Source: Aphrocallistes beatrix (taxonomy: Eukaryota; Porifera; Hexactinellida; Sceptrulophora; Aphrocallistidae). From it: a stretch of 64,000 nucleotides of DNA. The position numbers and the translations under genes were made by a program. Below, one piece after another: positions 38,860-60,333 of the stretch (positions are counted from its first letter, which is position 1; every line of letters begins with the position of its first letter). The notes beneath the pieces were generated by a model, which saw only the letters and a program-made list of their open reading frames with translations, made no database searches and was not told the DNA's origin. The stretch covers positions 4,235,148 through 4,299,147 of the forward strand of contig OY725499.1 of NCBI GenBank assembly GCA_963281255.1, in the 5' to 3' direction.

Positions 38860-40008
38860 TCATTGAGGAACTGGGAGGAGAGGATCAGTCAAGCTGGGTC
38901 TAAACCTGGTGGGAATATATCCAAATCGATATTTCAGTTTCATTACGATTATGCGTTCGAAGAATAAGCAGGTAGCCAGTATGTATTGTGATCCAATTAT
39001 AGCAGATGCTAATATAATTAGAAAGGTCGAAAAATATCTGATAACTGTATTGGTAGTGTGCAGAGCCTCGATCTGTTGCTGTGTAACGAGAAGTGTTTGG
39101 TAGTCTGGAGTAGCATAGAGATAATTGAAGATGCAAGGACCGTAATAGAGAATGGTAGCGATCAGTGTGAAGTATTGTGTTAGGAATTCAGCGAAGATAA
39201 AACAGACAGTACCGATCAACATACAACCCATTATGATTACAAACTGATAGCTACTGATCAGAGATCTCTTAACAACTCGATTGGATCTACCTCTTACACG
39301 AAACTCAACTGTCTTCCATTTCAGTGTCTTGAAAAAGGTACGTGTGTGTTTGATCCAAATACTGAAGTAGATTAGTTGCAATATTTGCTCAACAACTTTT
39401 TCAATCATCATCAATTGTGGAACAGATCCTGCGATGATCAAGAAAATTCCTAACATTACTGAGACCAGAAGAAACATTCGAATGTATCGAGCTGTTTTTC
39501 CATATATGTCATGGTACTTCACATCAAGATACTTCATAAGACAAATCCCTAAAGCTATCGAGAACAACAGTCCAGCTTGTCCTACGGAAACAAGTATGGA
39601 AACTAATGGATTTGAGGTCATAGCATCTATCATTATGTTATTAAAATGAGCTAACTCAGTGGTACAGTTGTGGATTTGAAATCTTGAAGAATTTAGAATG
39701 TCCTCAGGCTGTCGTGTAATCGCGAGAGCAGCTCCTAATCCATATATTTGCATCGCACCAAATTCAGTGACATTCATTACAAGTAAGAATGTGTATTTGT
39801 GAATTTCAACTTTAATATGTTGAGCTGCTTCCAAGAAATTCCCAAATGGATCAGTATTTGCCTTCTCCATACATTCACGATACAACAAAACTAAATGCCT
39901 GATCTTTTTAACAAAGAAGATGTCCCAGATAATGGATAGTATTATGAGAAAGGAGATAACTGGCATCAGTGTGCAAATCTCAACGTTTTCAATACTACTG
40001 AGCACCAT
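38860..40008 (-). CDS. Seven-hydrophobic-segment membrane protein, family member 2
   Basis: The ORF encodes 382 residues, the same length as its paralog at 35.4 kb. Segments and loops align without gaps: RHLVLLYRECMEKANTDPF, then EIHKYTFLLVMNVTEFGAMQ, KYLDVKYHDIYGKTARYIR and YFTLIATILYYGPCIFNYLY. Most differences lie in the N-terminal 20 residues and the extracellular-looking loop around residues 105-135, while loops facing the other side are nearly unchanged. That pattern hints at divergence of an exposed surface. The function is unknown. A possible upstream exon with a perfect donor is noted at 41.7 kb. Confidence 0.75.
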   Translation of the reverse strand: MVLSSIENVEICTLMPVISFLIILSIIWDIFFVKKIRHLVLLYRECMEKANTDPFGNFLEAAQHIKVEIHKYTFLLVMNVTEFGAMQIYGLGAALAITRQPEDILNSSRFQIHNCTTELAHFNNIMIDAMTSNPLVSILVSVGQAGLLFSIALGICLMKYLDVKYHDIYGKTARYIRMFLLVSVMLGIFLIIAGSVPQLMMIEKVVEQILQLIYFSIWIKHTRTFFKTLKWKTVEFRVRGRSNRVVKRSLISSYQFVIIMGCMLIGTVCFIFAEFLTQYFTLIATILYYGPCIFNYLYATPDYQTLLVTQQQIEALHTTNTVIRYFSTFLIILASAIIGSQYILATCLFFERIIVMKLKYRFGYIPTRFRPSLTDPLLPVPQ

Positions 40009-40922: not shown

Positions 40923-41437
40923 CTGTTTCGTGCCAGGTTGATTCACGTGCCAGATTGATTCACTTGTATTAATGGACCATGGACACTGTAGTGTCGTGCC
41001 AGATTAATTCACTTGTATTACTGAACCATGGATGCTGAGTTACCGTACCAGATTGATTCATTGTTTGTGTAATTATGTGATACGAACAATATGCATTGCT
41101 TACACAGTATCTGCACTTTATGAGGGAGTTACTGTATGATAATTATCACATTTTCGCATACGCAGCTAGTAATTCCGAATTTATTCAAAGGATTATCTTT
41201 CAAGGATTGGAATTGGTAAGCATTTCAACTACGTAGTTTCTGAAAATGGAATAATATTTGATTTTTATTCGTTAATCACTTATGCTGTCATACAAAGTTT
41301 GAATCAATCTGGTACGGTAACTCAGCATCCATGGTTCAGTAATACAAGTGAATTAATCTGGCACGACACTACAGTGTCCATGGTCCATTAATACAAGTGA
41401 ATCAATCTGGCACGTGAATCAACCTGGCACGAAACAG
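40923..41437. mobile_element. 515-bp non-autonomous element with ~130-bp inverted ends
   Basis: The arms 40923-~41054 and ~41303-41437 are near-perfect reverse complements (outer end CTGTTTCGTGCCAGGTTGAT). TA lies on both sides (40921-40922 and 41438-41439). Inside each arm CCAGATTGATTCACTTGTAT occurs with variation. Non-coding. Confidence 0.85.
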
Positions 41438-41670
41438 TACTACTGACCAACTTTCCTATATAATTACATAACAACTTCAGTTATCCGAACCCCCTCGGTC
41501 CCAACCCGTTCGGATAACTGACGTCCTACTGTAAATAGAAATCTCTAATATAGATGGATTTTGGTTTAGAGAAAGGAGTTTGTACTAAACTGTAGAATGT
41601 ATTACCTGAGGAAATAGTAAAAGAAGAAATTATTTATTAATTAGTAATAAAATATAACTGTTTTATTTTT

Positions 41671-41855
41671 AGAATAAGGGCATCGGATAGACACCCAGAG
41701 CATAGAGCTCAACTTACCTGTATTTAGTTTTGTTTGAAGTTTGTAAAGTAGTTTTATAAGCACTGAGTTGAGAATAAGCTAGCTTATCATACAGTTTCAT
41801 TGCAATCATGTTATGGGTCTATGTTAATAAAGCTATTCTATGCATTGTTAAATTT
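41671..41855 (-). repeat. Repeat copy carrying a perfect splice donor, near the 38.9-kb gene
   Basis: 185 bp that recur at 56392-56572. On the minus strand it has TTATAAAAC and then ACAG|GTAAGT, with the donor boundary at 41718. It lies upstream of one seven-segment gene, and the other copy lies upstream of a second member, so it may be a shared promoter plus 5' exon. Confidence 0.5.
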
Positions 41856-41913
41856 TTGTGGTTGTATTTTAATATAATCTTTAAACAGTGCGCATTTATC
41901 TTGAGAACATCGT

Positions 41914-41970
41914 CAAGATGGTAGGTTTATTTGTGAGAAAAACAAATAAACCTACCATTTTATGATCTAA
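41914..41970. mobile_element. Short copy of the palindromic GATGGTAGGTTTATTTGTGA MITE
   Basis: The two arms AAGATGGTAGGTTTATTTGT and its mirror complement meet across a few A residues. Longer copies lie at 45.9, 46.5 and 49.4 kb, always beside an ANK-ART locus. Confidence 0.7.
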
Positions 41971-42107
41971 GAATATTCATCGGATACTTTTCTTCTCATT
42001 TACTGTTTCAAGGATGAGTTCAGGGTTCAGTCTATTTATATTGTTCAATTACATATACATATGCTCGTACTCGTATGGTGGAAATTTGTATTGTCAAATT
42101 GTGTACG

Positions 42108-42740
42108 AATCAAAATTATAAAAATGTAGATGCCATTATTAAAGCCATTGAGGTTTATTCAAAAACGGAAGTGGAACTAGTTGGAACCATTTTACACTCT
42201 GAGCTCAAAACTACGACTGAATGTGTCAACTAATTGGATGAATGGAAGCGCAATACAGTACACCCTCGATAGTCCGAACCTCGGCAATCCGTACCCTCGC
42301 TAATCCGAACACTTCATTCTTAATATCCGAACACCCAAAATATAATTTTATTCGCCTTTATGCTTTAAATAAACGTTTATAAACTTATATATATCAACAT
42401 AGCGAAATAATATCTTAAAAATTCTAACAATACAAATTTATTATAATTAATGCCCAATTGAATTAGTGTTATTTCACTGATCGGAACAAATTCACTAATC
42501 CGAACGATTTTTTCGAACATCGGAACAGAGCTGTTCGGATTAGCGAGGGTGTACTGTACACAGAAATTTGACGAAAATTTAGCTGTAAAGCCAGAGTAAG
42601 TGAAAGTGAAGTCAAATAAAATATTGTAACTTTATTCCAAGAAAAAAATTCATGTACAAAACGCCAAATTTCAACTGGAAAATGATCATGTGATCTCCTT
42701 GTAAGCATTGTATTCCAGTTGAGAGAATAAAGTTGATTTG
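42108..42740 (+). pseudogene. ANK-ART C-terminal fragment split by a MITE
   Basis: The DNA matches the last ~300 bp of the intact gene at 50 kb (for example AATGTAGATGCCATTATTAA and TTTATTCCAAGAAAAAAATT) but the frame is broken. A 301-bp MITE is inserted at 42256-42556. Only the coiled-coil end and 3' UTR survive; ankyrin and ART parts are absent. Confidence 0.78.
42256..42556. mobile_element. 301-bp pogo/Tigger-like MITE
   Basis: Ends CAGTACACCCTCGATAGTCC and, inverted, CAGTACACCCTCGCTAATCC; TA flanks at 42254-42255 and 42557-42558. Repeated TCCGAACA pieces inside. It interrupts an ANK-ART pseudogene. Confidence 0.88.
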
Positions 42741-43056
42741 ATTTTTTTGTACATAAAATACATACACATACCTCTGCTCAGTACAAATTCAAAATAAGAT
42801 ACAAATTTAAACAGTACTAAATAGCACCTAGTGTCAATGTCTTTATTGCAGTGATTCCCAACCTCCCAAGTGGTCCACAGAATATATCAGGGGGTCCACA
42901 GTATACGAAATTTTATAGGAAAGTTGATATAAGGGGTCCACAGTAAAAATAAGGTTAAAACCGCTACTCTATTGTATCGTAGTTGCTATAATGTAGGATA
43001 AGTTGTACTATAGCATTCTATACACTAAGGCAAATGGCACTCCCAAAATCTTTTGG
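42741..43056. other. Spacer with hAT-like debris
   Basis: GCAGTGATTCCCAACCTCCC at ~42848 and GGTCCACAG repeats resemble one end of a hAT-type MITE; no partner end is certain. Confidence 0.4.
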
Positions 43057-43345
43057 ACTAGGGGTCACATCTTATTGTGATTGCAAACTGATAGCTACTG
43101 ATGAGAGATCTCTTAACAACTCGATTGGATTCACCTCTTACATGAAACTCAATTGTCCTCCATTTCAGTGTCTTGTAAAAGGTACGTGTGTGTTTGATCC
43201 AAATACTGAAATAGATTAGTTGCAATATTGGCTCAACAACTTTTTGAATCAATTTCAATTGTGGAACAGATCCTGCGATGATCAAGAAAATTCCTAACAT
43301 TACTGTGACCAGAAGAAAGGTTCGAATGCATCGAGCAGTTGTAGT
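43057..43345 (-). pseudogene. Fragment of the seven-segment membrane protein family
   Basis: Encodes LVTVMLGIFLIIAGSVPQL to VVKRSLISSYQFA, equal to residues ~175-255 of the genes at 35.4 and 38.9 kb, with both ends missing. About 290 bp remain. Confidence 0.85.
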
Positions 43346-43570
43346 AGAGTTATACTATGTGTATTTTATGTACAATTTGAAAAATGTATCCACAAGTATA
43401 GTCTTAATGAAAGTCTACGTATAACTGTTGGAATAAGAGTTTATTAATCATATAAATAAGCACATTTACACTTAAGCCTATACAAAAATACTAATATTGT
43501 ACCATGCAAGAGAGTGGAAAGAGGGGAACCTATTTATACACACTAAATCAGCTGCATTCTCTCACTGCTA

Positions 43571-45624
43571 CTAGTAAATAAGATTGCCATTTTCCAACTG
43601 AGATTTGGCACTTTGTACCTGAATTTTTTTCTTGAGATAAAGCTCCAACATTTTCTTAGAACTTAATTTCACTTTCTCTTGCTCGAGAGCTAACTTTTCG
43701 TCAAATTTTTGAGTCTTCACTTTCCATTCATCCAATTTGGTTATAACATTTTGAATCGCAGTCCTGAATTCAAAATGTTTGGTTTCCATTAGTTTCACTT
43801 CCGTTTTTGGATGAACTTCAACGATTCTCATTTCATCTACATTTTCATTATTCTGATATTTCATAATTTCTGCTCTCAATTTGCCTTTTCTGTTTTCGAA
43901 TTCTTTTCTTTTCTTTTCTTAATTAAGGTTGCAATCGCTGCCTTTATTCCTTCGGCTTGCATTTCAAAATTACTTGCTATGATAGAGAGAAGTTGTCTTG
44001 GCTCAGTTTTACAGATTAATTTCATGTGGATTTGTGTTTTTCCATTTACTTTTTCAACCTTCGTAACTCTAAACTGAGCACCACATGGATAGAGATATTC
44101 ATCTTCTGTTTGGTTGGCAGAAAAACTTGATATTCCTCTTGGTGACCATATGCAAGTATTGGAATTGTCAATTATGAACTTACAATTTCCAGAGAAAGAC
44201 TTATTTTCGTCACTTGAAGATGAGGTGAAGGACAACCAAGCAAATTCTTTTCCTTTTGAATACTTTTTGATATCTGACTCTCCCACATCCATGCCTCTAA
44301 ATGTTTTCTGAGTGTAGACTGGCCGTTTTAACAAATTCTGGAGCAGTATCGCATTTGTTAGAGCACTGTATGCTCTGAATTCTGTCTTTGTACTCGGTTT
44401 ATTTAGTGATTGGTTCCGTAACTCTATATTGAGTTTGATGTAAATAAAATCTGTGGTGTACCATTTGATTAATTCTTTGAAGAAAGAATCTATTTTAGTG
44501 GTTTTTGCTAAAGTTTCACTCAAGGTTACATCAAATTTGTGAATTTCTGTTAACACTACACTCTTTGCCTTTTTCCAGTTATTCGGGACAAATGGAAAAG
44601 CCTTTAACTCAGCTGACATCCGTGCATCTCCTAAGTTGATGAAATCAAATATGAACAGCCCCATTTCTGGAAACACCTTTAGATATTCTAAATTTAGATC
44701 ATTATCGCATATGTCCCCTTTGTACTCCTCCATTGTTTGTGCTGTGTACCTCATCAGTATCAAATTGCTGTCGTGGATAGAGACGTATGTTGGCTCACTT
44801 GTGTGTTCTTCTTGAAGTTTCTTTTCTTTCCATCGAATCGCCGCTTTCACTTCGTCACTTGTTGTGATCATCGCAGCTGTTTGTTCAGCTCCATATGAAC
44901 TTTCTATCGACGTCTTAACAGCTGGATCACAAGCTGGATAGTACAGAATCTTCTGAACTGCTTCTACGTCGTTAGCTTCTGCAGCATAATGAAGAGGAGC
45001 CATTCCTGTATCTGGATCTGTCTTGTTCACTAAGTTCTTCCACTTATCCAGAAGAGAGAATAGGTTCTTCCAATTCTTACTCTTTGCCTCTTCACCGATA
45101 GTTTTAACATGTTGTTCATCTTCCTTAATTAGTTCTTCATAAGTTTGTTTATTTTCTTTTTGAATGGTTATTTTGGGATCCGTTGCTTCTGGAGCTATCT
45201 CCTCACTAACTTCATCGTTTGCAAATGGTGTTTCATTTTTGTTTGCTTCTACTAAGTCTCCTTGAGGCATTTCTTCCCATCCATTAGCCTGTGCTATGTG
45301 CTGTTCCAGTAGCTTCCGTATCTCTGCTGTTGTCTCGATGTCAAGAGATCTGAGTCCATTCTTAGTCAACAGCTCTGAGTCACAGCCTGGCACTGCTAAG
45401 ATCTTCTTCACAGCTATCACGTCTTTCCACCAAACAGCTTGGTGCAGTATAGCCCATGCTCTCTCTTCAGGAATGCAATTCACGAAGTAAGGTTTTCTGT
45501 TCAATATTTCCCACACAGTGTCCCATTCTCCATATTTAGCTGCCATTGTCATTTTCCCACTTTCATCATCATGTAGATCAGTGTATGGATCTGTAACATT
45601 AGTTGCCATTGTAATGTAATTCAA
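43571..45624 (-). pseudogene. ANK-ART gene with a 5-bp slippage frameshift
   Basis: The ATG at 45624 opens 582 codons with the full ankyrin and ART part. The R-S-E residues are kept: TFRGM, FTSSSS and EDEYLYPCGAQFRV (ExE). Then the frame is lost at an AAAAG repeat: this copy has one more AAAAG unit than the intact gene at 50 kb (bases ~43906-43922). The lost C-terminal coiled coil (102 residues) is still readable in the next frame, 43879-43571. A 582-residue enzyme without the coiled coil could still be made, so it may be a truncated allele. The promoter (TTTTATA at 45656-45662) and 5' flank match the plus-strand paralogs. Confidence 0.85.
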
Positions 45625-45655
45625 TGGCTTATGATAATACCCAAGCTTTATTAAC

Positions 45656-45662
45656 TTTTATA
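45656..45662 (-). promoter_or_regulatory. TATA box of the 45.6-kb ANK-ART gene
   Basis: TATAAAA on the minus strand, ~32 bp before the ATG; the same block precedes the 47- and 50-kb paralogs. Confidence 0.55.
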
Positions 45663-45894
45663 CCATTAATTTGTCTATCTGACCTTACAACAAGAATCAA
45701 ATATCTAAGTCATCTGCTATGAGTCAATACAGTTTGTATATGTATGATTACTTTGAATATTTCTGTAGTAATTGTAAGCATTGTGTCATTTAGGATGTTT
45801 GCACCGTTATCTATAGATGCTTGTAATAATGCTTTCATTAATATTGATTTAAATAAGCCTCAATAACCCTAATAATGTTTATTATTCAGTGACA

Positions 45895-46020
45895 TCATCT
45901 CCAACAAACAAGAAATACTATGAATAATCTCAAACAAGCAAAAGTTGTCCCTTTTCAAACGAGCAGAAATAGTATGCATTTATCCTTAGATCATAAGATG
46001 GTAGGTTTATTTGTGAGAGA
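45895..46020. mobile_element. Half copy of the palindromic ANK-ART-linked MITE
   Basis: ATCTCCAACAAACAAG ... AAGATGGTAGGTTTATTTGT; the second half is replaced by the mariner fragment that follows. Confidence 0.65.
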
Positions 46021-46083
46021 AACTCAAAAATTTTAAGATACTCAGAAGAAAAGTTACATTTCTGTTGAGAACAAAAAGTTGAG

Positions 46084-46471
46084 TTGTCAAAACCACAGAA
46101 CTTAGTTCTGATGACTCTTGCTTACACGGCACAGGTTTCGGCCACCACTGCTGTCAGATGTGGCTTTGAAATCCTGCTACATCCTCCGTATTCTCCAGAC
46201 CTTACTCCTTCCGACTTGTATTTGTTTCCTCGTTTAAAGGAACAACTTCGTGGTAAGCATTTCGGTTGTGATGATGACGTCATCTCCGCCATTGAGACTT
46301 CCTGGAGGAGCAGAATGAGGTCTTCTTCGGGACTGGCCTAGAGAAGCTGGAGGATCGCTGGAGCAAGTGTGTTGCCCTCAACTATGCCATGCTAAAAATA
46401 AAGTCAAAAATGTAAGAAAATATGTTATTCTGTGGTGTGTGAAGTCGGAAACTTTTTGAACGCCCCTCGTA
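46084..46471 (+). pseudogene. 5'-truncated mariner transposase remnant
   Basis: Encodes HPPYSPDLTPSDLYLFPRLK, the third-Asp region of mariner, then after a frameshift DFLEEQNEVFFGTGLEKLED to a stop near 46411. A terminal-repeat-like TTTTTGAACGCCCCTCGTA ends at 46471. It is older and different from the element at 2.6 kb and interrupts a MITE. Confidence 0.82.
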
Positions 46472-46690
46472 ATTATAAGCATTGTGTCATTTAGGATGTC
46501 TGCACTGCTATCTTTACTAGATGCTGAGCAGAAATAGTATGCATTTATCTTAGGATCTTAAGATGGTAGGTTCACTTTTATTTTCTCTCACAGATAAACC
46601 TACCATCTTATGATTTAAAGATAAATGCATACTATTTCTGCTCGTTTGAAAAGAGTTAACTTTTGCTTGTTGGAGATGACTCATAATATT
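46472..46690. mobile_element. Palindromic ANK-ART-linked MITE copy
   Basis: Arms around AAGATGGTAGGTTCACTTTT and AGATAAACCTACCATCTTAT, with outer AGCAGAAATAGTATGCATTT on the left mirrored on the right. Lies in the 5' flank of the 47-kb gene. Confidence 0.7.
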
Positions 46691-46945
46691 TCTTGTTTGT
46701 TGGAGATGATGTCACCAAACATTAAACGTCATTAGGGTTGTTGAAGTATAAATATTCAATTCTATATTAATTGAAAGCATTATTACAAGCATCTAGTAAA
46801 GATAGCAGTGCAGACATCCTAAATGACACAATGCTTACAATTACAACAGAAATATTCAAAGTAATTATACATATACTTCATTGCAATAACTCATGGTACA
46901 TGACTCAGATATTTTATTCTAGTTGTAAGGTCAGACAAATTAACG

Positions 46946-46954
46946 CTATAAAAG
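46946..46954 (+). promoter_or_regulatory. TATA box of the 47-kb ANK-ART copy
   Basis: CTATAAAAG, 46 bp before the ATG at 47000; identical in the 50-kb gene. Confidence 0.55.
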
Positions 46955-46999
46955 TGAACTAAGCTTGGTTATTATCACAAGCCATCTAGCCACACTACA

Positions 47000-48778
47000 A
47001 TGGCAACTAATGTTAAAGATCCATACACTGATCTACATGATGATGAAAGTGGGAAAATGGTATTGGCATCAAAATGTGGAGGATGGGACACTGTGTGGGA
47101 AATATTGAACAGAAAACCTTACCTCGTGAATTGCATTCCTGAGGAGAGAGCATGGGCTATACTGCATCAAGCTGTTTGGTGGAAAGACGCGATAGCAGTG
47201 AAGAAGATCTTAGCAGTGCCAGGCTGTGACTCAGAGCTGTTGACTAAGAATGGACTCAGACCTCTTGACATCAAGACAACAGCAGAGATACGGAAGCTAC
47301 TGGAACAGCACATAGCACAGGTTAATGGCTGGGAAGAAAAGCCTCAAATATACTTAGCAGGAGCAAACAAAAAAGAAACTCCTCAAGGAGATCCAGCTAA
47401 AACAAACAAAAAGGGAACACTATTCTCAAACAACGAAGTTAGTAAGAAGATAGTTCCAGAAACAGCAAAACCCAAAATAACCATCCCGAATAAAAAATAT
47501 ACAAACATATAAAGAAATAGTTAAGGAAGACAAAGAGCATACTCAAGTTATGGGTAAAGAGGCAAAGAGTAAGAATTGGAAGAAACTATTCTCTCTTCTG
47601 GACAAGTGGAAGAACTTAGTAAACAAGACAGATCCAGATACAGGAATGGCTCCACTGCATTATGCTGCAGAAGCTAACGACGTAGAAGCAGTTCAGAAGA
47701 TTCTGTACTATCCAGCTAGTGATCCAGCTGTTAAGACGTCGATAGAAAGTTCATATGGAGCTGAACAAACAGCTGCGATGATAACAACAAGTGACGAAGT
47801 GAAAGCAGCGATTCGATGGAAAGAAAAGAAACTTCAAGAAGAACACACAAGTGAGCCAACATATGTCTCTATCCACGACAGCAATCTGATACTGATGAGG
47901 TACACAGCACAAGCTATGGAGGAGTACAAAGGGGACATATGCGACGATGATCTAAATTTAGAATATCTAAAGGTGTTTCCAGAAATGGGGATGTTCATAT
48001 TTGATTTCATCAACTTAGGAGATAACTGGAAAAGGGCAAGAGATGTGGTGTTAAAGGAAATTCACGGATTTGATGCGACTTTGAGTGAAAGTTTAGCAAA
48101 AACCACTGATATAGAACCTTTCTCCAAAAAATTAATCAGATGGTACACAACAAATAATATTTACAAAGAACTCAATGAAGAGCTACGGAACCAATCTATA
48201 AATAAACCGAATACAGAGAAATTCAAAGCATACAGTGCTCTAACAAATACGATACTGCTCCAGAATGTTTTGAAACAGCCAGTCTACACCCAGAAAACAT
48301 TTAGACGCATGGATTTGAAAGAGTCAGAAATCCAAAGGTATTCAAAAGGAAAAGAATTTTCTTGGCTGTCCTTCACCTCATCTTCAAGTAAGAAAAAGGA
48401 GTCATTCTCTGAAAATTGTATGTTTGTAATCGACAACTCCCAAAGTTGTGTGTGGTCACCAAGAGGAATATCAAGTTTTTCTGCCTACCAAGCGGAATTA
48501 GAATATCTGTATCCATGTGGTGCTCAGTTTAGAGTTACGAAGGTTGAAAAACACAAATCCACATGGAATTAATCTGTAAAACTGAGCCAAGACAACTTCT
48601 CTCTATCATCGCAAGTAATTTTGAAATGCAAGCCGAAGGAATAAAGGCAGCGATTGCAACCTTAATTAAGAAAAGAAAAGAATTCGAAAGCAGAAAAGGC
48701 AAATTAAGCACGAATCAAAATTATGAAAATGTAGATGCCAGTATTAGAGCCGTTGAGGTTTATTCAAGAACTCAGTAA
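47000..48778 (+). pseudogene. ANK-ART pseudogene with three lesions
   Basis: Three frames are needed to read this copy. (1) 47000-47512 holds the N-terminal ankyrin part, ended by a one-base insertion near 47490. (2) 47550-48572 holds the second ankyrin unit and the ART domain, with TFRRM, FTSSSS and ELEYLYPCGAQFRV still intact. (3) Near 48550 a 13-bp deletion between short GAAAAA repeats shifts frame again (48563-48778), and the C-terminal coiled coil is then cut short. It also lacks the ARMSAELKVFPFVP insert of the intact gene. Sequence is otherwise very close to the 50-kb gene, so decay is recent. Confidence 0.88.
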
Positions 48779-49427
48779 TCAAAATTTGTGCAATCATCAT
48801 TATATTTCGCAACAAGCTATAATTACGACTAATTTGACCAATTTTCTTGCATGCTTTGCGTAGTCATAATAAACTACTAATATTTATTTAGAATAGGATA
48901 TCTCACTTTGGATCAGTTGTTGAAAAATATGTGGAAATTTTCATTAGAATGTACATGCATTCCTGCTTTTCCTGGAAACGTCATCGACTAACTTGGGGTC
49001 TCTTAATAACTGTAATATTCATAAATGATGTCATATCATAGGCAATAGGCGACTTCCTTTTCACAATAATAAAATTTCTTCGCCTAAATATTATAGTTAC
49101 AATGATGGACTAATACGTCATTTTGTATTGGCAAAATATATTTGCTCATAACTGTAAAAGTATTTCATATTTAAGCTCATTGCAAATTTCCACATACAGG
49201 TATATGTATATGTAATTGAACAATACAATTTGACTGAACCCTGAACTCGATTCTTGAGCAGTAAATGAGAAGAGGAAATTGACAAATATTCTTAGCAGTG
49301 AAGTGTCTCTTGATACGCAATTAATTTCGAACGAAAAATTACAAGTAGTAGTATAACTGAATCGAGTTGTTTTGTAAATACTAACTAAATACCAATCTGG
49401 TGTTACGAAGAGTTCAATTTAACATAT
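48779..49427. other. Intergenic, partly duplicated
   Basis: Spacer; 49190-49300 is the reverse complement of ~41990-42100 (TATATGTATATGTAATTGAA), so this spacer was duplicated together with the ANK-ART loci. Confidence 0.5.
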
Positions 49428-49616
49428 CATCTCCAACAAGCAAAATTTACTTCTTTCGAACAAGCAGAAATAGTGTATATTTATCCTTACTTAGATCATA
49501 GGATGGTAGGTTTATTTGTGAAAGAAATCACAAATAAACCTACCATCTTATGATCTAAGGATAAATATACAGTATTTTCGCTCGTTTGAAAGAACTAAAT
49601 TTTGCTTGTTGGAGAT
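49428..49616. mobile_element. 189-bp palindromic MITE, fullest copy
   Basis: Near-perfect palindrome: outer ATCTCCAACAAGCAAAATTT mirrored at the right end, core CATAGGATGGTAGGTTTATT mirrored across a ~10-base centre. Located ~430 bp upstream of the intact ANK-ART gene. No TA or 8-bp duplication is clear. Confidence 0.8.
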
Positions 49617-49992
49617 TATTCATATTATTACTTGCTTGTTTGAGATAATGTCACCAAACAATAAACTTCATTAGGGTTGTCCAAATCAGTTTAATTGAAA
49701 GCATTACAAGCTATAGATAGCAGTGCAAACATTCTAAATGACACAATACTTACAATTACTACAGAAGTATTAGAAGTATTTTAATAATATATAATGTTAC
49801 TTTTGAAATATCAAATCGGTTATTATGTAAAATACCTGAAAAATTCAGTGATTATGTAGAAGATATGTAAATCAAGGCATTTCCATCAGTTATTATACAT
49901 AATGACTGATTGATAGCAATATATACCCATTGACTCATGGGACATATTTTGGAATTATATTCTTGTTTTAAGATCAGATAGACAAATAAACG
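49617..49992. other. Conserved 5' flank of the ANK-ART family
   Basis: ATTAGGGTTGT, AGATAGCAGTGCAAACATTC and AATGACACAATACTTACAAT occur in the same order before the 45.6- and 47-kb copies, so the promoter region was duplicated with the genes. Confidence 0.55.
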
Positions 49993-50001
49993 CTATAAAA
50001 G
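49993..50001 (+). promoter_or_regulatory. TATA box of the intact ANK-ART gene
   Basis: CTATAAAAG, 46 bp before the ATG at 50047. Confidence 0.6.
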
Positions 50002-50046
50002 TGAACTAAGTTTGAGTGTTGTTACAATTCATTTAATTACGTTACA

Positions 50047-52122
50047 ATGGCAACTAAGGTTACAGATCCATACACTGATCTACATGATGATGAAAGTGGG
50101 AAAATGACAATGGCAGCTAAATATGGAGGATGGGACACTGTGTGGCAAATATTGAACAGAAAACCTTACCTCGTGAATTGCATTCCTGAGGAGAGAGCAT
50201 GGGCTATACTGCATCAAGCTGTTTGGTGGAAAGACGTGATAGCTGTGAAGAAGATCTTAGCAGTGCCAGGCTGTGACTCAGAGCTGTTGACTAAGAATGG
50301 ACTCAGACCTCTTGACATCGAGACAACAGCAGAGATACGGAAGCTACTGGAACAGCACATAGCACAGGCTAATGGATGGGAAATAATAACTCAAGGAGAC
50401 CTAGTAGGAACTAACAAAAAGGAAACTCCTCAAGGAGATCTAGCTAAAACAAACGAAAAGGGAACACTATTCTCAAACAATGAAGTTAGTAAGAAGATAA
50501 CTTCAGAAGCAACATACCCCAAAATAACCATTCCAAAAGAAAATAAACAAACTTATGAAGAACTAGTTAAGAAAGATGAACAACATACTAAAGCCATCGG
50601 TGAAGAGGCAAAGAACAAAAATTGGGATAAACTATTCTCTCTTCTGGATAAGTGGAAGAACTTAGTGAACAAGACAGATCCAGATACAGGAATGGCTCCT
50701 CTTCATTATGCTGCAGAAGCTAACGACGTAGAAGCAGTTCAGAAGATTCTCTACTATCCAGCTTGTGATCCAGCTGTTAAGACAGCGAAAGAAAGTTCAT
50801 ATGGAGCTGAACAAACAGCTGCGATGATCACAACAAGTGACGAAGTGAAAGCGGCGATTCGATGGAAAGAAAAGAAACTTCAAGAAGAACACACAAGTGA
50901 GCCAACATATGTCTCTATCCACGACAGCAATCTGATACTGATGAGGTACACAGCACAAGCTATGGAGGAGTACAAAGGGAACATATGCGACGATGATCTA
51001 AATTTAGAATATCTAAGAGTGTTTCCAGAAATGGGGCTGTTCATATTTGATTTCATCAACTTGGGAGATGCACGGATGTCAGCTGAGTTAAAGGTTTTTC
51101 CATTTGTTCCGAATAACTGGAAAAAGGCAAAGAGTGTAGTGTTAACAGAAATTCACAAATTTGATGCGACTTTGAGTGAAAGATTAGCAAAAATCACTAA
51201 AATAGATTCTTTCTGCAAAGAATTAATCAGATGGTACACAGCAGATTTTATTTATAAAAAACTCAATAAAGAGCTACGGAACCAATCTATAAATAAACCG
51301 AATACCAAGACAGAATTCAAAGCATACAGTGCTCTAACAAATGCGATCCTGCTCCAGAATGTTTTGAAACAGCCAGTCTACACCCAGAAAACATTTAGAC
51401 GCATGAATTTGAAAGTGTCAGATATCAAAAAGTATTCAAAAGGAAAAGAATTTGCTTGGTTGTCCTTCACCTCATCTTCAAGTAAGAAAAAGGAATCATT
51501 CTATGAAAATTGTATGTTTGTAATCGACAACTCCCAAAGTTGTGTGTGGTCACCAAGAGGAATATCAAGTTTTTCTGAATACCAAGCGGAATTAGAATAT
51601 CTGTATCCATGTGGTGCTCAGTTTAGAGTTACGAAGGTTGAAAAAGTAAATGGAAAAACACAAATCCACATGGAATTAATCTGTAAAACTGAGCCAAGAC
51701 AACTTCTCTCTATCATCGCAAGTAATTTTGAAATACAAGCCGAAGGAATAAAGGCAGCGATTGCAACCTTAATTAAGAAAAGAAAAGAATTCGAAAACAG
51801 AAAAGGCAAATTGAGTGCAGAAATTAAGAAGTATCAGAATTATGAAAATGTAGATGAAATGAGAATCGTTGAAGTTCATTCAAAAACGGAAGCGAAACTA
51901 ATGGAAACCAAACATTTTGAACTCGAAACTGCGATTCAAAATGTCATAACTAAATTGGGTGAATGGGAAGTGAAGACACAGAGATTTGACGAAAAGTTAG
52001 CTCTAGAGCAAGAGAAAGTGAGAGTGAGTTCTAAGAAATTGTTGAACCTTTATTCCAAGAAAAAAATTCAGGTAAAAAATGCCAAATCTCAATTGGAAAA
52101 CGGCAATCTTATTTGCTTGTAG
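50047..52122 (+). CDS. Intact ankyrin + mono-ADP-ribosyltransferase + coiled-coil protein
   Basis: The ORF encodes 691 residues in a single exon. Residues ~15-115 are ankyrin-like (AWAILHQAVWWKDVIAVKKI, NGLRPLDIETTAEIRKLL). Residues ~200-270 are a second ankyrin unit (DTGMAPLHYAAEANDVEAVQ). Residues ~300-560 form a vertebrate/ecto-ART-like domain with the R-S-E signature: R451 in TFRRM, FTSSSS at 474-479, and E515-L-E517 in ELEYLYPCGAQFRV. ExE is the arginine-specific form of the motif. Residues ~575-691 are Lys/Glu-rich coiled coil. There is no signal peptide or TM, so it should act inside the cell, where ankyrin repeats would choose the target. Known ARTs move ADP-ribose from NAD+ to Arg; activity here is inferred from the motif only. 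Confidence 0.85.
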   Translation: MATKVTDPYTDLHDDESGKMTMAAKYGGWDTVWQILNRKPYLVNCIPEERAWAILHQAVWWKDVIAVKKILAVPGCDSELLTKNGLRPLDIETTAEIRKLLEQHIAQANGWEIITQGDLVGTNKKETPQGDLAKTNEKGTLFSNNEVSKKITSEATYPKITIPKENKQTYEELVKKDEQHTKAIGEEAKNKNWDKLFSLLDKWKNLVNKTDPDTGMAPLHYAAEANDVEAVQKILYYPACDPAVKTAKESSYGAEQTAAMITTSDEVKAAIRWKEKKLQEEHTSEPTYVSIHDSNLILMRYTAQAMEEYKGNICDDDLNLEYLRVFPEMGLFIFDFINLGDARMSAELKVFPFVPNNWKKAKSVVLTEIHKFDATLSERLAKITKIDSFCKELIRWYTADFIYKKLNKELRNQSINKPNTKTEFKAYSALTNAILLQNVLKQPVYTQKTFRRMNLKVSDIKKYSKGKEFAWLSFTSSSSKKKESFYENCMFVIDNSQSCVWSPRGISSFSEYQAELEYLYPCGAQFRVTKVEKVNGKTQIHMELICKTEPRQLLSIIASNFEIQAEGIKAAIATLIKKRKEFENRKGKLSAEIKKYQNYENVDEMRIVEVHSKTEAKLMETKHFELETAIQNVITKLGEWEVKTQRFDEKLALEQEKVRVSSKKLLNLYSKKKIQVKNAKSQLENGNLICL

Positions 52123-52802
52123 CATTGTATTCCAGTGAGAGAATACAGTTGATTTAGTGTGTATAATTAGATTCCCCTATTTCTACTCTATTGCATGTGA
52201 TTTGATATCAATATTTATATAGGCTTATAAGATAAATGTGCTGTTTACAGAATTTAATTTTACAGGATTTAACTCTCATTCCATACAGTATTATACATAG
52301 ATTATTAGAACAGGAATAAACATGTATTTAGTTGAGGAATACATGTATCAAATATCTTGTGTATAAAATACATGCACATAACTCTACTCAGTGCAAATGC
52401 AATTTTCAAAAGACTTACTACCACCCTCTGTCAATGTCTCTATTGTATCATAGATGTGTTGTGCCTTGTACGGGTATTCATTTGATATAGGGATCTGCCT
52501 AATTTCCGGGGCGTGATAGTCCCGGAAAATATAGATCCCTAATTCCCGTTGGAATGACTAGACCAGACGTATCAGCACGCTAAGAACAGAATTAAATGAA
52601 TTTAAGAAACTTGTACTTGTAGGTTGTTGTGTTCAAAAGTATTTACCTCAATCATGGTTCTTTCCTAATCACCTGATTTATCCAATATTTACCACACACT
52701 CACTAAGTAAGCATAATTGCTTTCTAAACACACACAAGCACATCACTGAAATTCAAAATGTGAGTCTAACTATCGATATAAAAATGTACACATGCAGAAC
52801 AT
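52123..52802. other. Spacer between two convergent ANK-ART genes
   Basis: 3' UTRs of both genes. A CCTAATTTCCGGGGCGTGAT piece at ~52498 resembles the repeat at 22.1 kb. Nothing coding. Confidence 0.4.
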
Positions 52803-54677
52803 CTAGATCAGCTGGGATTTTTCCAATTCTAATTTCAGAGCTTCCACTTCCAGTGTAATCTCAGAGTATAGTTTCAATTTTCTCTCAGCATCTCCATTGA
52901 CTGGTGTTTGTCCAGTACTGAGCTGTCTATCAAATTTCAGTGTCATCATCTCCCACTCACTCAGCTTCGCTAGGACGTCTTTAACTGCCGCATCAACTTC
53001 ACTCCGTTTAGATTCTATCACTTCCTCTTTCTTCTTGGCTCTATCGAACTTAGATTTCATCTTCTTGTCTAGCTTCGTTTCAGTCTTTGTTTGTATTTCA
53101 TTTACGAAGTTTACTTTCTTATGAAAGCTAGAGTGGCATTTCTGAGGACACATTTCGCAATGCTCTTCATCAGCTGTTCCACTAACAATACACCTCCCTT
53201 CTTGCATGTCAGTTTCAGGACACGGGTAATGACAGGTGAAGTTACAGTTAGAACAATGGTATGCCTCTTCATACTTTATAAAGTGTTTGTGTATTGTTTT
53301 CTGAATGATCAGTGTCTCATAATTAGTATTAGCCTCGATTTTCTGCTTTATCTTGGGCAATTTCTTACTCATCTTCACGTGAATCTTATCTAACTCCCTT
53401 CTTGCTCCTGCTAGCACCCCAGCTCTCTCTCTTAGTTCCTTAATTAGAATTTCTAAATCTTTCGTGTCGATTGGAGCATATAACCATGGGTCAGGAATGA
53501 ATATTAACTTGATGTAGAATTTGTTTTTTCGATACATTTGTTCAACCTTCGTAACTCTAAACTGAGCACCACATGGATAGAGATATTCTTCTTCTGATAG
53601 GTTGCAAGATATATCCGATATTCTCCTTGGAGACCAAATGCAAGCCTCGGAATTATCAATTTCAAATATGCAATTCCCAGGAAAATCCTCCTGCTCTCTA
53701 CTTGTGGAAGAGGTGAAGGACAACCATGCAAACTCTCTGCCTTCCGTGTACTTCTCAATATCTGAGTTACCCAGCATTAAGCTCTTGTACGTTGTTTCTG
53801 TGCAAACTGGCAGTTTTAGAAAGTTTTCAAAGAGTAATGCATTTGTTAGAGCAGCATATCCTTTGTATGGGAAATTACTATGTTGTAGTTCTGTAGCCTG
53901 CGTTCTCAACTTTCGATTGAAATCAGAGGAAAAGCTACCTGTGTAGCACCGGATTAACTCTTTGAAGAAATCCTCACTCATTGTTGAGGAATGCAAATTT
54001 TTGGCCGCATCAAAATAGTAAATTTCTTTTGCTACTGCATCTCTTGCATGCTTCCAGTTATCTCCCTTGTTTATGAAGTCAAATATGAATGATCCCATTT
54101 CTGGAAACAGTTTCAGGTTATTTGCATCTAGATAATCATCACATTTGTCTCCACCATTTAGTTCCATAGCTTGGCCTATGTATCGCTTCAGTATCAGATT
54201 GCTATCATAGACAGAGACGTATATAGGCACATCTGTGTGTTTTTCTAGAAGTTTCTTTTCTCTCCACCTAATCGCTCCTTGCACCTCTTGACTTGTTGTG
54301 ATCTCAGCAGGCGTTTTACCAGCTCCATGAGAACTTGATTTCAGTGTCTTAACAGCTGGATCACAAGCTGGATAGCACAAGATCTTCTGAACTGCTTCTA
54401 CGTCGTTAGCTTCTGCAGCATAATGAAGAGGAGCCATTCCTGTATCTGGATCTGCCTTGTTCACTAAGTTCTTCGACTTATCCAGAAGAGAGAATACCTT
54501 TTTCCAATTCTTACTCTTTGCCTCTTCGCTGATAACTTTTATTTGCGGTTCGTCGTTCTTAACTAGTTCTTCAATCGCTGGTTTGTTTGTATTTGGAAAG
54601 AGTATATCTGTTTTTGTTGATTCTATAATTTCATTGTATTCATTATCAATATCTGCACCAGTTATCTTAGTCGCCAT
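52803..54677 (-). CDS. Divergent ANK-ART with Cys/His-rich domain and changed catalytic Arg
   Basis: The ORF encodes 624 residues and is complete. It lacks the first ankyrin unit of its paralogs but keeps the second (DTGMAPLHYAAEANDVEAVQ). The ART domain keeps FTSSTS and EEEYLYPCGAQFRV (ExE), but the Arg of TFRxM is replaced in TYKSLML by Lys, so NAD+ binding may be altered. After it comes a Cys/His-rich segment absent from the other copies, CSNCNFTCHYPCPE then CIVSG then HCEMCPQKCHSSFH. Similar TCHxxC...CxxCxxxCxxxxH patterns occur in immune-type GTPases and other animal proteins. A coiled coil ends the protein. No close TATA box was found. Confidence 0.82.
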   Translation of the reverse strand: MATKITGADIDNEYNEIIESTKTDILFPNTNKPAIEELVKNDEPQIKVISEEAKSKNWKKVFSLLDKSKNLVNKADPDTGMAPLHYAAEANDVEAVQKILCYPACDPAVKTLKSSSHGAGKTPAEITTSQEVQGAIRWREKKLLEKHTDVPIYVSVYDSNLILKRYIGQAMELNGGDKCDDYLDANNLKLFPEMGSFIFDFINKGDNWKHARDAVAKEIYYFDAAKNLHSSTMSEDFFKELIRCYTGSFSSDFNRKLRTQATELQHSNFPYKGYAALTNALLFENFLKLPVCTETTYKSLMLGNSDIEKYTEGREFAWLSFTSSTSREQEDFPGNCIFEIDNSEACIWSPRRISDISCNLSEEEYLYPCGAQFRVTKVEQMYRKNKFYIKLIFIPDPWLYAPIDTKDLEILIKELRERAGVLAGARRELDKIHVKMSKKLPKIKQKIEANTNYETLIIQKTIHKHFIKYEEAYHCSNCNFTCHYPCPETDMQEGRCIVSGTADEEHCEMCPQKCHSSFHKKVNFVNEIQTKTETKLDKKMKSKFDRAKKKEEVIESKRSEVDAAVKDVLAKLSEWEMMTLKFDRQLSTGQTPVNGDAERKLKLYSEITLEVEALKLELEKSQLI

Positions 54678-55530
54678 TGCACTGCTTTCAAATTAAATCG
54701 GTTGAAATAGATTTTAACTATTCTCAATAACTTAAATATTGTCTCAAAAGTTCGATTACAACATCTCCATAATACGAGATATCATATTATCTTCAACACG
54801 AGAGATTACATCAAACAATTTTAGTTTGTTTAGACGTTACATTATTAATAGTAAAACAATAAACAAGGTTTGTTTACACCTGTAAGATATCAGACTTACA
54901 GTGTATTGATCTTACATGAACTCTACTGAATAGTAAACAAACTAATTATATGAACTGTATTCCATAAAGTAAGGACAAACAAGATCAAATTTCATTACAT
55001 GAGTAGCAGTAGCAATCGGATCACTAGCTAGATACTACAGACTTCTCTCAAATAGTCGTAGCTTCTGCTATGACTCTAATTTGTATTTGGAATTTAGTTG
55101 TATTTGCAAATATGCACATCTCTTAAAATTCATGTGACTAAGGATTAAGTATTCAAGTAATTAGTCCTCACTACACTCGACCCGCATTGGTAGCTTAAGA
55201 ATTTATTGAGCAATTTTATGTTCTTCATTAATTAGCAAGGAATCCAGGAAAATTTCTTTGATCACGAACTTCGAAAATTGTTCTAGAATTTTGATCAAGT
55301 GATTATTTAAAACAGTTAGATAACAATATATCTCATATATGAAATTAGAAATATATTAACATCCAGGGATTTACCATTGAAATCCAAGGAAATTTAAGGG
55401 TGATGTTGGTAAGTATGAAAGCTTGTTATATACACATAATGTCAATAAAACAGCAAACAATCTCAATACAACAAATATGAGTGGAAAGAGTAAGCACTAC
55501 AAGTTAGTATATCAGCTGTGACCTAAATGC
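54678..55530. other. Intergenic, nothing recognised
   Basis: AT-rich flank of the divergent ANK-ART gene and 3' flank of the next gene. No repeat or ORF of note. Confidence 0.4.
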
Positions 55531-56134
55531 CTATATGAAGGGAGGTCTCCTATCAAGCTTCCGTCCTACGTCAGCTCTGTACTTCTCCATGAGAGGCCGG
55601 GTTACCCAGTCATTGACATGGATATACGCTTTTCTTCTTAAAATCAATCGTTTTATGATCCATGAGAGTATTGCTAGATTCAATGCAAATAGGATTAAAC
55701 CAATTAACATACTACTGATCATCTCTAGAATTTCGATGGAGGAGAAAATCCGGATTAAGACAGTTGTGCTGGTCGGTATTGTGAAGCCGATTGGAGTGTT
55801 GGGAAATATGTATTGTACCATACAATTACTGTGGGCTACAATTGTAGTCGGTTCTAAAATGGAATTTAGTATAGTTACTATCATCAAGAGGAATAAAATG
55901 AATAAGACGAGCATGCGTGAGATGACAAATAATTTTGCTGCTCTCCGTTTATTTTCGTATTCTCGTGGTGTGGAATGCCGCTTTGCTTCTTCACTCATTC
56001 CTTTCAGCAGAAGATAAAACTTCTTGCTTGCCTTTACATAGACATGAATATCAAAGAAGAAGAATGGTACTTCCATTGTACATAGCAAATAACTCATAAA
56101 GATGAAGTGAGTTGAAGATATCAAGATTGCCAAT
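55531..56134 (-). CDS. Diverged, C-terminal-half member of the seven-segment family
   Basis: The open frame follows a strong acceptor (TTTGTTTTCTATTCAG) at 56135, so this is an exon. It encodes ~200 residues aligned with residues ~185-382 of the 35.4-kb protein: FFFFDIHVYVKASKKFYLLL matches LIYFRIWVKHTRTFYKTLKW, then a basic loop, two hydrophobic segments, and RADVGRKLDRRPPFI at the end. Identity is low but spacing holds. The N-terminal half is missing in the open DNA. An ATG at ~56097 could start a short protein if the upstream exon (donor at 56439) is non-coding. Functional status is uncertain. Confidence 0.55.
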
Positions 56135-59028: not shown

Positions 59029-60333
59029 CAGGGTGACAAATAAGTTCTGTCCCATTTAAAAATTGTTATAACTTTATCATAAGACGAGATATTAACTTGT
59101 AATTTTGCTGAAAGTTATCTTAGTACATACAGATTCATTACAAATTTAGCTGTTCAATGTAGCCTCCCTTGTTTTCGATTACGGCCCTGTCGCTTAGGAA
59201 CGGATTCAACAGCGATACGCATCGTTTCCTGTGGAATTTTCGCCCATTCTCTGCAAAGAGAGCTTTTTAGAGACTCGATACTCTTGTGGCTGGTAGAGCA
59301 AGCCTTTGTCTCCAATATTGACCATATCCAAAAGTCCAGAGGAGTGAGATCCGGACTGGATGGCGGCCATTCCTCCTTCGAAATGAAATCCGGAAGATTC
59401 GTTCGTAGCCACTCTTGGTTGATATTCGCGGTATGATCAGGAGCTCCGTCTTACTGGAACAAAAATGGACGATTATTGAACATTGTCTTACCAAGATCTT
59501 TCACTATAGGCTTTAAAACGAGTTCTTGATACTTGACAGCATTGATTTTCACGCCTGGTGGGATAAAAACTAGGGGAGTGCGGCCTTTTGCGGATATTCC
59601 GGCCCAAACCATCACTGACTGAGGTTTCTGTACTCTTAACCAATCTATACTCGTCTGGGATAGTAGAAGAAGAGGAGGACAATATTCGATCGTTTTGGGT
59701 ATTTAGGGCTTGCTCAACTGTAAATAATTTCTCATCAGAAAATATTATCTGATCTAGTCCATGACTTGCGAACCGGTCACGTAGAATTTTACTTCTTGCT
59801 AACCTCTTCTGCTTGATCGCTGCCGAAGTAAAGTGGACTTTCCTTCTTTTATAAGGAAATAGGCCTAGATCTCTTTTTACAATTGTACGAGATTCCCTAG
59901 AGATTTTAATTTCTGACGCTATTTTTCGCATCGAACGTCGCGGATTTCGCCAAATCCGACTCCGCACAACCTTTCTATTCCGTATGTTGGTTGCAGAGAC
60001 GGGACGTCCACTTCTTGACCTGTCTGTGGTGTTGCCAATGTCCCTATACCTTTTGATAGTGCGATATATTAATTTACGTCGCGTTTTGGGAAAATCCATA
60101 AATTTAAATATTTCGCTAGGACTTTTCCCTTGAAGGTAAAATTTAATAATAGCCGCCCTGTCTTCTTCCATGATTCAAAAAAAATTTTAATTGGTTCCGA
60201 TTGTTTGAAATAACTTAGAAATATGATGACAATAAACATAGTAACTGATGTTACAGCAATATTACTTGACTTGGTTGGTTAGTAAAGAAATAGACTACAT
60301 CAAACTATGGGACAGAACTTATTTGTCACCCTG
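59029..60333 (-). mobile_element. maT-like (DD37D) Tc1/mariner element
   Basis: 1305 bp with perfect 26-bp terminal inverted repeats (CAGGGTGACAAATAAGTTCT...) at 59029-59054 and 60308-60333, and TA on each side (59027-59028, 60334-60335). Encodes a decayed transposase on the minus strand. Confidence 0.92.
59138..60171 (-). pseudogene. DD37D transposase with frameshifts and an internal stop
   Basis: The ATG at 60171 opens 227 codons: paired helix-turn-helix DNA-binding part (SPSEIFKFMDFPKTRRK, then RSRSGRPVSA) and the first Asp (IIFSDEKLFTVEQ). The frame shifts near VMVWAGISAKGRTPLVFI, continues through FLFQ, a TAA in place of Gln, DGAPDHTA and SPDLTPLDFW, then shifts again before GGYIEQLNL and stops at 59138. 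Second and third Asp are 37 residues apart (DD37D), as in the maT group. Ends are perfect although the gene is dead, so mobilisation in trans is possible. Confidence 0.88.

Follow-up and report, generated by a model that had tools for sequence, protein, structure and literature searches.

The stretch of DNA analysed here (the window, 64,000 nucleotides) contains a cluster of five loci on both strands that encode, or once encoded, proteins joining ankyrin (ANK) units to an ADP-ribosyltransferase (ART) domain. The intact gene (50047..52122, plus strand; the 50-kb gene), recognised by its open frame, Pfam and alignment, encodes in a single frame a 691-residue protein made up of ANK unit 1 (50089-50361), ANK unit 2 (50554-50901), an ART domain with R451, S476 and E515/E517 (50902-51702) and a helical C-terminal tail (51703-52119), with the borders of the units set by eye. 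The second gene with a single open frame (52803..54677, minus strand; the 52.8-kb gene) encodes a divergent protein of 624 residues with one ANK unit, the first being absent; it carries K298 at the position of the catalytic arginine (within 53778-53792) while keeping the ExE motif, and has a C-terminal Cys/His module (53121-53255) that the 691-residue protein lacks. For comparison, the longest open frame arising by chance in 200 base shuffles of 42001-55000 was 164 residues.

The remaining three loci are damaged. In the 43-kb copy (43571..45624, minus strand), the frame is broken after the ART domain, and the tail (43571-43879) lies in a different one. By eye, the cause is a short GAAAA-type repeat that is longer by one 5-nt unit; as a result, the ANK-ANK-ART open frame (43876-45624) yields a 582-residue protein ending before the helical tail. 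The 47-kb copy (47000..48771, plus strand, its end approximate at ~48770) is split into an ANK1 frame (47000-47512) and an ANK2-ART frame (47550-48572), with the rest of the tail out of frame; by eye, the ART frame is cut off by the loss of 13 nt lying between short direct repeats, and there is one further break. Finally, a C-terminal remnant (42095..42703, plus strand) consists of two pieces, 42095-42166 and 42558-42703, that match the tails of the 47- and 50-kb copies. The 5' flank of the 47-kb copy (46576..46999, plus strand) has pieces in common with that of the 50-kb copy (49528-50046), so the duplication carried upstream DNA too, and the 5' flank of the 43-kb copy (45736..46028, minus strand) is inverted relative to the flank of the 47-kb copy (169 nt at 89% and 80 nt at 93% identity). 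The cluster proposed in a first-pass annotation of this DNA is thus real and its coordinates stand, as does the recent duplication and decay of its copies; both copies described there as frameshifted are indeed broken, with the correction that the 43-kb break spares an ANK-ANK-ART frame and costs only the helical tail. Both the 50-kb and the 43-kb copy carry an in-frame insertion of 45 nt, which was considered as a retained intron, a reading dropped because by eye it has no GT...AG ends, and an Rfam search of 41000-56000 gave zero matches.

The assignment of the ART domain rests on profile matches. In hmmscan, PF01129 scored 32.6, 33.1 and 31.1 bits in the 50-, 43- and 47-kb copies, above the Pfam cut-off of 22.3, and the 52.8-kb gene fell just under it (21.5 bits; 24.7 bits in the six-frame search). 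The R-S-ExE motif had been attributed to the window ARTs in general, but it is kept in three of the four copies only, as K298 replaces the catalytic arginine in the 52.8-kb gene; in the 691-residue protein the letters are exactly as claimed. Shared ankyrin units are likewise supported, mostly just below the per-family Pfam cut-offs and with the first unit missing from the 52.8-kb gene: Pfam Ank models matched the 691-residue protein with E-values of 7e-5 to 5e-4, below their own cut-offs, and Ank_2 reached 44.7 bits, above its cut-off, in the family member L022. AlphaFold models of the 691-residue protein (pLDDT 44.1) and of its ART region alone (pLDDT 35.1), based on alignments of the four window proteins, were of very low confidence, and neither gave a confident ART fold; in the former, residues 551-684 were largely helical, the putative coiled coil of the first-pass annotation being judged from this model. 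By eye, the 18 N-termini examined, several with an uncertain start, show no signal peptide, and no GPI anchor signal was seen in these proteins. The 50-kb gene and its copies begin with the start methionine followed by polar sequence, and 3 of the 18 frames (L022, L020, L026), as well as a separate frame of a broken copy on contig C11, have MGxxxS directly after the first methionine, which we take to be a myristoylation-like signal. An arginine-type ART joined to ankyrin units and free of a visible signal peptide, as first proposed, is therefore what the sequences support.

The idea of a five-locus system is not supported as such, because the family to which the cluster belongs has copies at many other places in the genome. 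This genome-wide family comprises ~25 gene copies, scattered and in part broken, most of which combine ankyrin repeats with an ART domain, and PF01129 matched 16 of 21 aligned members at E<=0.01. We aligned 28 ART units from 25 loci, using the ART part alone for C3:6421, 6424 and 6437 and leaving out a copy with 12 stops (C3:1411 kb), fragments at C13:4425 and C19:772 kb, the 42-kb remnant in the window, and ARTs with no listed match to the 691-residue protein (C8:3696, C10:4719). Many members are deeply diverged in the tree of ART units; R, S and ExE are all kept in 24 of the 28, the motif being lost in the 52.8-kb gene, C7_4322 and the first units of C20_942 and C20_968. Three loci carry two ANK-ART units in tandem, and in two of them the first ART lacks catalytic residues while the second is intact, an arrangement of a pseudo-ART followed by an intact unit that is a new finding.

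Estimates of selection differ between pairs and along the genes. Over two ART parts, dN/dS was 0.26-0.34 between the 50-kb gene and each of three diverged members (the 52.8-kb gene, L011 and L013); against L015 it was 0.58 in the first part and 0.19 in the second, against the 43-kb copy 0.71 in the second part, and against the first frame of the 47-kb copy 0.97. Weak constraint in some of these pairs also fits relaxed selection. Synonymous divergence jumps along the genes (fourfold sites, 1/44 versus 28/63, p 3e-7; 1/45 versus 26/55, p 1e-7), a new observation and the pattern that gene conversion would give.

Among solved sequences, a family profile matched six at E<=0.1, all of them bacterial ART toxins or effectors. 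The best was Vis, named as an NAD(+)--arginine ADP-ribosyltransferase (E 5.8e-9), and the others were two sequences of a 'PAAR repeat-containing protein' ART, two of XopAI, and HopU1; we take all of these to be mono-ARTs of the R-S-E type. R, S and ExE are in register with Vis and both PAAR sequences in three alignments, and the PDB entry of one solved relative also contains a hydrolase. Because these relatives are bacterial toxins and effectors, the similarity is silent on action inside animal cells. Neither the ART nor the ANK profile found a relative in the genome_contigs and viral_contigs collections, where the scans used one or two short patterns, so that absence is weak evidence, and tblastn found none in phages and plasmids. 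With PADLOC, three of four proteins had no match at E<=0.1 and L030 had one weak match (E 0.01).

Support for a role in defence comes circumstantially from the C-terminal Cys/His module, which several ANK-ART members carry, the 52.8-kb gene among them, and which is seen in an alignment of six members. In single comparisons it matched GTPase L046 (5e-14, 1e-11) and GTPase L049 (5e-12), and a six-frame genome search found it outside ANK-ART genes with E-values down to 1.1e-7; a second module query, taken from C20:942, recovered one GTPase only. L046 is above the cut-off for Septin, AIG1 and MMR_HSR1, and L049 is above that for MMR_HSR1 and for the unrelated-looking AAA_23 model, with AIG1 below its cut-off (19.4 versus 27). 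A C-terminal module common to ANK-ART members and GTPases of the same genome, one of AIG1/septin type by its Pfam scores, is new. L046 has 13 non-ART matches, counting itself, and ten of them fall within C20:1030-1179 kb; tandem duplicates in this cluster are not independent, and a binomial clustering test, which had entered 9 of 13, was set aside. One ANK-ART locus lies within the interval (C20:1108 kb) and two more at C20:942 and 968 kb; the chance that at least one of 15 ANK-ART locations falls near the cluster is P ~0.02-0.05, and the proximity could be chance. The earlier label of a defence or conflict gene, strengthened in this circumstantial way, is still one that we infer.

ADP-ribosylarginine hydrolases of ARH1 type form an array in the same genome, at C16:924-944 kb, several segments of which contain stops; this array is a new observation. 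It sits on a different contig, and in a genome search ARH-type matches occurred on C16, C12 and C20 only, none near the window cluster. A hydrolase at C20:1018 kb was considered as a partner eraser and rejected, as the piece searched matched MJ1187 and an ADP-ribosyl-(dinitrogen reductase) hydrolase rather than ARH1; its position may also be due to chance, with P ~0.01 that at least one of four locations would be so placed.

Altogether, we favour, with a probability of about one half, a model whereby the ANK-ART proteins are intracellular, NAD-dependent arginine mono-ADP-ribosyltransferases with ankyrin docking, whose modification is reversible by ARH1 and which fit a role in defence or conflict. 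In this model, one or two ankyrin units would dock a protein partner, and the ART domain would move ADP-ribose from NAD+ onto an arginine of the bound target. The helical and Cys/His C-terminal module that several members have in common with AIG1/septin-like GTPases might mediate oligomerisation or joint docking with those GTPases, and ARH1-type hydrolases would take the modification off again. A role in intracellular defence or conflict would fit the turnover of copies, the conversion-like exchange of docking units, the pseudo-ARTs in the 52.8-kb gene and at the head of two tandem loci, and the module in common with an immune-type GTPase family, although many non-immune families also duplicate and form pseudogenes. 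We regard as tentative, and on balance improbable in full, the more specific proposal of a GIMAP-linked immune network of arginine MARylation, in which ankyrin-ART writers, some of them pseudo-ART/ART tandems, would have their tail in common with AIG1/septin-type GTPases, both assembling on one intracellular target or membrane, and the multi-copy ARH1 array would act as eraser.

Tankyrase-like housekeeping is rather unlikely. On this reading, the proteins would be intracellular ANK-ART signalling scaffolds that expanded by drift among single-exon duplicates and have no defence role, and passages in PMC9688111 giving the tankyrase plan as ANK plus ART, others in PMC10282587 describing single-exon tandem expansions in a glass sponge, and the purifying selection seen in the ART domains of copies that have diverged all agree with it. 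Young, broken and pseudo-enzyme copies and an AIG1/septin-type GTPase module would, however, be unusual for such genes, and the motif is R-S-ExE, with Pfam giving no PF00644 (PARP) match in those ANK-ART proteins that were scanned. We consider it improbable that the family is selfish, its ARTs poisoning cells that lack pseudo-ART or ARH1 partners and spreading by meiotic or post-zygotic drive: the closest solved relatives are toxins or effectors, one in a PDB entry with a hydrolase, pseudo-ART units adjoin active-looking ones, and clusters show turnover, but members are scattered and many deeply diverged, and the ARH-type matches on C16, C12 and C20 leave the window cluster with none nearby. 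Just as improbable is a family of bacterial origin that is in decay and no longer has a function, for which broken copies, pseudo-ART units and bacterial solved relatives might speak; against it stand the three motifs kept in 24/28 units, dN/dS of 0.26-0.34 when three diverged pairs are compared in their ART parts, and short-pattern and tblastn scans (weak for contigs) that gave no relative in prokaryotes, viruses, phages or plasmids. Least probable is that the ARTs are secreted or sit at the cell surface, as ecto-ARTs or venom-like proteins, with signal peptides on unseen upstream exons. Mammalian ARTCs are mostly GPI-anchored (PMC9404506, section 2.2), but 50047-52122 and its copies start with methionine and polar sequence, some others have MGxxxS, and ankyrin repeats and a tail in common with GTPases are usually intracellular modules.

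Inside cells, ADP-ribosylation is attributed mainly to PARPs. With a large family of ankyrin-bearing R-S-ExE ARTs that show no visible signal peptide, with a tail in common with an immune-type GTPase family, and with an ARH1 array as well, this genome would open arginine ADP-ribosylation inside the cells of an early-branching animal to direct testing, and the tail on several members points tentatively to a kind of animal defence chemistry that has gone unstudied. Genome size, the single open frames and the AIG1-type family suggest that the animal is a sponge, probably a glass sponge. The main text of two glass-sponge genome papers (PMC10282587, PMC10280926), in the portions available, makes no mention of ADP-ribosylation, which neither supports nor excludes the family.

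Among known systems, the solved R-S-E ARTs (Vis, PAAR-type ART, XopAI, HopU1) have the same ART core by profile, with motifs in register in three alignments, whereas the ANK-ART genes lie in an animal genome, carry ankyrin and Cys/His modules and have no secretion signal that we could see. Invertebrate AIG1/GIMAP-type GTPases, of which portions of PMC10282587 describe a single-exon expansion in the glass sponge Aphrocallistes vastus, resemble the ANK-ART proteins in clustering, in their single open frames and, as far as the GTPases of this genome go, in the C-terminal Cys/His module; the resemblance in sequence is confined to the tail, and Pfam listed no P-loop GTPase domain in those ANK-ART proteins that were scanned, whereas L046 and L049 have one. 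Vertebrate ARTCs (ecto mono-ADP-ribosyltransferases, PF01129) are similar in the profile, above cut-off in 3/4 window copies, in R-S-ExE (24/28) and in the predicted arginine acceptor. The arginine-specific mammalian enzymes are mostly GPI-anchored at the cell surface according to parts of PMC9404506, whereas ANK-ART proteins have no visible signal peptide or GPI signal, place ankyrin units in front, in several members add a Cys/His and helical tail, and at three loci carry two ANK-ART units. Tankyrases (ANK, SAM and PARP) likewise set ankyrin docking units before the ART, and the ANK-ART proteins, too, are read as intracellular. The two differ in that Pfam listed no SAM domain in the ANK-ART proteins scanned, that none of the 28 genome matches to PF00644 falls at an ANK-ART place, and that the ANK-ART proteins have many fewer ankyrin units and an R-S-ExE rather than a PARP-type ART; if our model is true, a tankyrase-like plan would have been reached from a different ART branch.

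We propose a model in which the ankyrin units of an ANK-ART protein (ankyrin units combined with an R-S-ExE ADP-ribosyltransferase, or ART, domain) would dock a partner protein and the ART domain would mark an arginine of that partner, while a shared tail would place some of these enzymes in GTPase-containing assemblies and ARH1 would reverse the mark. Activity, partners and a role in defence are what we infer for the family. The five loci that the first-pass annotation had placed at 42.1-54.7 kb, on both strands, were all found: an intact 691-aa open reading frame (50047-52122, +), a 624-aa open reading frame in the 52.8-kb gene (52803-54677, -), two broken copies and a C-terminal remnant identified by sequence match (42095-42703, +). 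The 43-kb copy (43571-45624, -) retains a 582-aa frame with its tail out of frame, and the 47-kb copy (47000 to ~48770, +) is broken at two places. The longest open frame across 200 base shuffles of the cluster region was 164 aa. The 47- and 50-kb copies have ~500 bp of upstream DNA in common, in pieces, and stretches of this DNA also occur in inverted orientation 5' of the 43-kb copy; we therefore conclude that these three copies are DNA-level duplications that include the 5' flanks.

The window also holds two similar 382-aa hydrophobic, membrane-protein-like frames (35407-36555 and 38860-40008, -), in which Pfam found no family at E<=0.01 for the former and chance-level matches only for the latter. 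Two single-frame NHL-repeat genes lie at 15451-16473 (+) and 31706-32941 (-), and on contig C3 a frame that by eye resembles them adjoins an ANK-ART. A PF01359 transposase remnant lies at 2661-3377 (-), and a frame at 59488-60171 (-), with helix-turn-helix matches under cut-offs, is transposase-like by eye.

Support for the ART assignment comes from PF01129 (cut-off 22.3), which scored 32.6, 33.1 and 31.1 bits in the 50-, 43- and 47-kb copies and 21.5 bits in the 52.8-kb gene, and which 16 of the 21 members in the family alignment match at E<=0.01; of the window copies, the 50-kb protein alone (26.4) passes PF03496 (ADP-ribosyltransferase exoenzyme; cut-off 23.4). The 21-member profile matched six solved sequences at E<=0.1, the best being Vis (E 5.8e-9), which bears the name NAD(+)--arginine ADP-ribosyltransferase. 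The other five are two sequences of an ART entered as PAAR repeat-containing protein, two of XopAI, and HopU1; in the three alignments inspected, R, S and ExE are in register with Vis and both PAAR sequences. R451, S476 and E517, proposed earlier for the 691-aa protein, are as stated and, with E515, align with the family motifs, so that a shared R-S-ExE holds for this protein; it does not hold for the 52.8-kb gene, where lysine (TYKS, K298) replaces the arginine. Two structure predictions, from alignments of window sequences only, had mean pLDDT of 44.1 and 35.1, too low for a confident ART fold. Elsewhere, C8:3696 (contig:kb) encodes a 403-aa ART (PF01129, 34 bits), the one Pfam family that it matches at E<=0.01, with a Cys-rich N-terminus; it adjoins a frame that by eye resembles a multi-span membrane protein.

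In the 691-aa protein, four Pfam Ank models match residues ~199-245 (E 7e-5 to 5e-3, all under their own cut-offs), a fifth being weaker, and the closest solved matches to residues ~182-246 are engineered ankyrin proteins (E 4.9e-6), which residues 26-96, an N-terminal unit, match weakly (E 0.027). The 43-kb copy passes PF00023 (21.4, cut-off 21.1), and a tandem relative scores 44.7 bits with Ank_2.

The window occupies positions 4235148-4299147 of contig C13. Across the assembly (100.5 Mb, 28 contigs), the 691-aa protein has at least 57 matches, on C3, C4, C6, C7, C9, C11, C13, C15, C16, C18, C19 and C20, including a second C13 cluster at 4422-4435 kb, ~123-136 kb past the window end. We aligned 28 ART units, drawn from 25 loci and counting broken copies, and R, S and ExE are retained together in 24 of them. 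The other four are the 52.8-kb gene, C7:4322, and unit 1 at both C20:942 and C20:968. By our own count an ankyrin unit is visible at 20 of these 25 loci, the ART part alone having been fetched for C3:6421, 6424 and 6437; no clear unit was found at C13:4433 and C7:4322. Two ANK-ART units share a single open frame at C18:1070 and C20:968 (1257 and 1279 aa, respectively) and occupy two overlapping frames at C20:942. In two of these three tandem loci catalytic residues are missing from the first unit but complete in the second, which suggests pseudo-ART/ART pairs. At C20:1108 an ANK-ART and its very long repeat tail, acidic and Pro/Thr-rich, form a single 2348-aa open frame (C20:1103-1110).

For both ART parts, dN/dS between the 50-kb gene and the 52.8-kb gene, L011 and L013 (family members in the same genome) is 0.26-0.34; with L015, another member, it is 0.58 and 0.19, and younger pairs range by part from 0.20 to 1.47, on few changes. 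In stretches picked after inspection of the divergence profile, fourfold sites differ between the 50-kb gene and L013 at 1/44 in residues 1-120 against 28/63 in 241-540 (p 3e-7), and for L011 at 1/45 against 26/55 (p 1e-7). L015 is near-identical to the 50-kb gene over 301-360 (0/11 against 15/33; p 0.008), and L011 and L013 are closer to each other in the ART than in the stretch compared with it (5/70 against 12/43; p 0.005). Such uneven synonymous divergence is the pattern expected from gene conversion or an exchange of modules.

A C-terminal module of paired Cys and His aligns in six members (C13:4428, the 52.8-kb gene, C13:4423, C13:4433, C18:1070 and C20:942) with ten invariant columns, seven of them Cys (five) or His (two). 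The C13:4423 copy of the module follows a stop, in a frame of its own. Outside ANK-ART genes, a 150-aa query from C13:4428 found six sites at E<=0.01 (down to 1.1e-7); with 220 aa of C20:942 as query there was a single site (E 7.8e-5). Of two such non-ART genes scanned with Pfam, L046 exceeds the cut-offs for Septin, AIG1 and MMR_HSR1, and L049 those for MMR_HSR1 and AAA_23, falling under that for AIG1; single comparisons of their tails with ANK-ART tails gave 5e-14, 1e-11 and 5e-12. L046 as query has 16 matches, three of them ANK-ART tails, and 10 of the 13 others (itself included) lie at C20:1030-1179. The ANK-ART at C20:1108 is inside this interval and those at 942 and 968 kb are near it; because a simple calculation gives a chance of 0.02-0.05 that any of 15 ANK-ART locations would lie in or within 100 kb of the interval, proximity alone is weak, and the shared module is the stronger ANK-ART/GTPase link. 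In the glass sponge Aphrocallistes vastus, AIG1 genes have expanded as a cluster of single-exon genes (excerpt of PMC10282587), and in a snail they stand in tandem arrays (excerpt of PMC7053062).

Candidate erasers come from PF03747, which matches 26 segments, distributed over C16, C12 and C20. For three pieces of the C16 array, ADP-ribosylarginine hydrolase (ARH1) structures are the only solved matches at E<=0.01 (three distinct sequences per piece, down to 4e-19); grouped by position, the segments at C16:924-944, several with stops, form about five units. ARH1 takes ADP-ribose off arginine (excerpt of PMC9404506). The hydrolase at C20:1018 is closer to MJ1187 and a dinitrogen-reductase-type hydrolase. 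Three tandem PARP-domain matches, in single frames of ~1030 aa, lie at C11:4343-4362, ~70 kb from an ANK-ART at C11:4273.

As to location, the claimed absence of signal peptides agrees with our reading by eye of 18 first-Met N-termini, several not certain starts, in which none is visible. Three of the 18 (L022, L020 and L026, all family members) begin with MGxxxS, a myristoylation-like signal; because of these starts and the lack of a visible signal peptide, the inner membrane face is a possible site for some members.

Three known systems were considered and rejected: GIMAP, as Pfam found no GTPase domain in the ANK-ART proteins scanned; tankyrase, as it found neither a PARP-type domain nor SAM in them; and canonical ecto-ARTC, as no signal peptide is visible in the N-termini read. 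The titles and opening abstract lines of the open PMC matches listed mention no ankyrin R-S-E ART family from a sponge. Some metazoa, namely hexapods and molluscs, do have 'Tox-ART-RSE' domains, according to an excerpt of PMC3482391.
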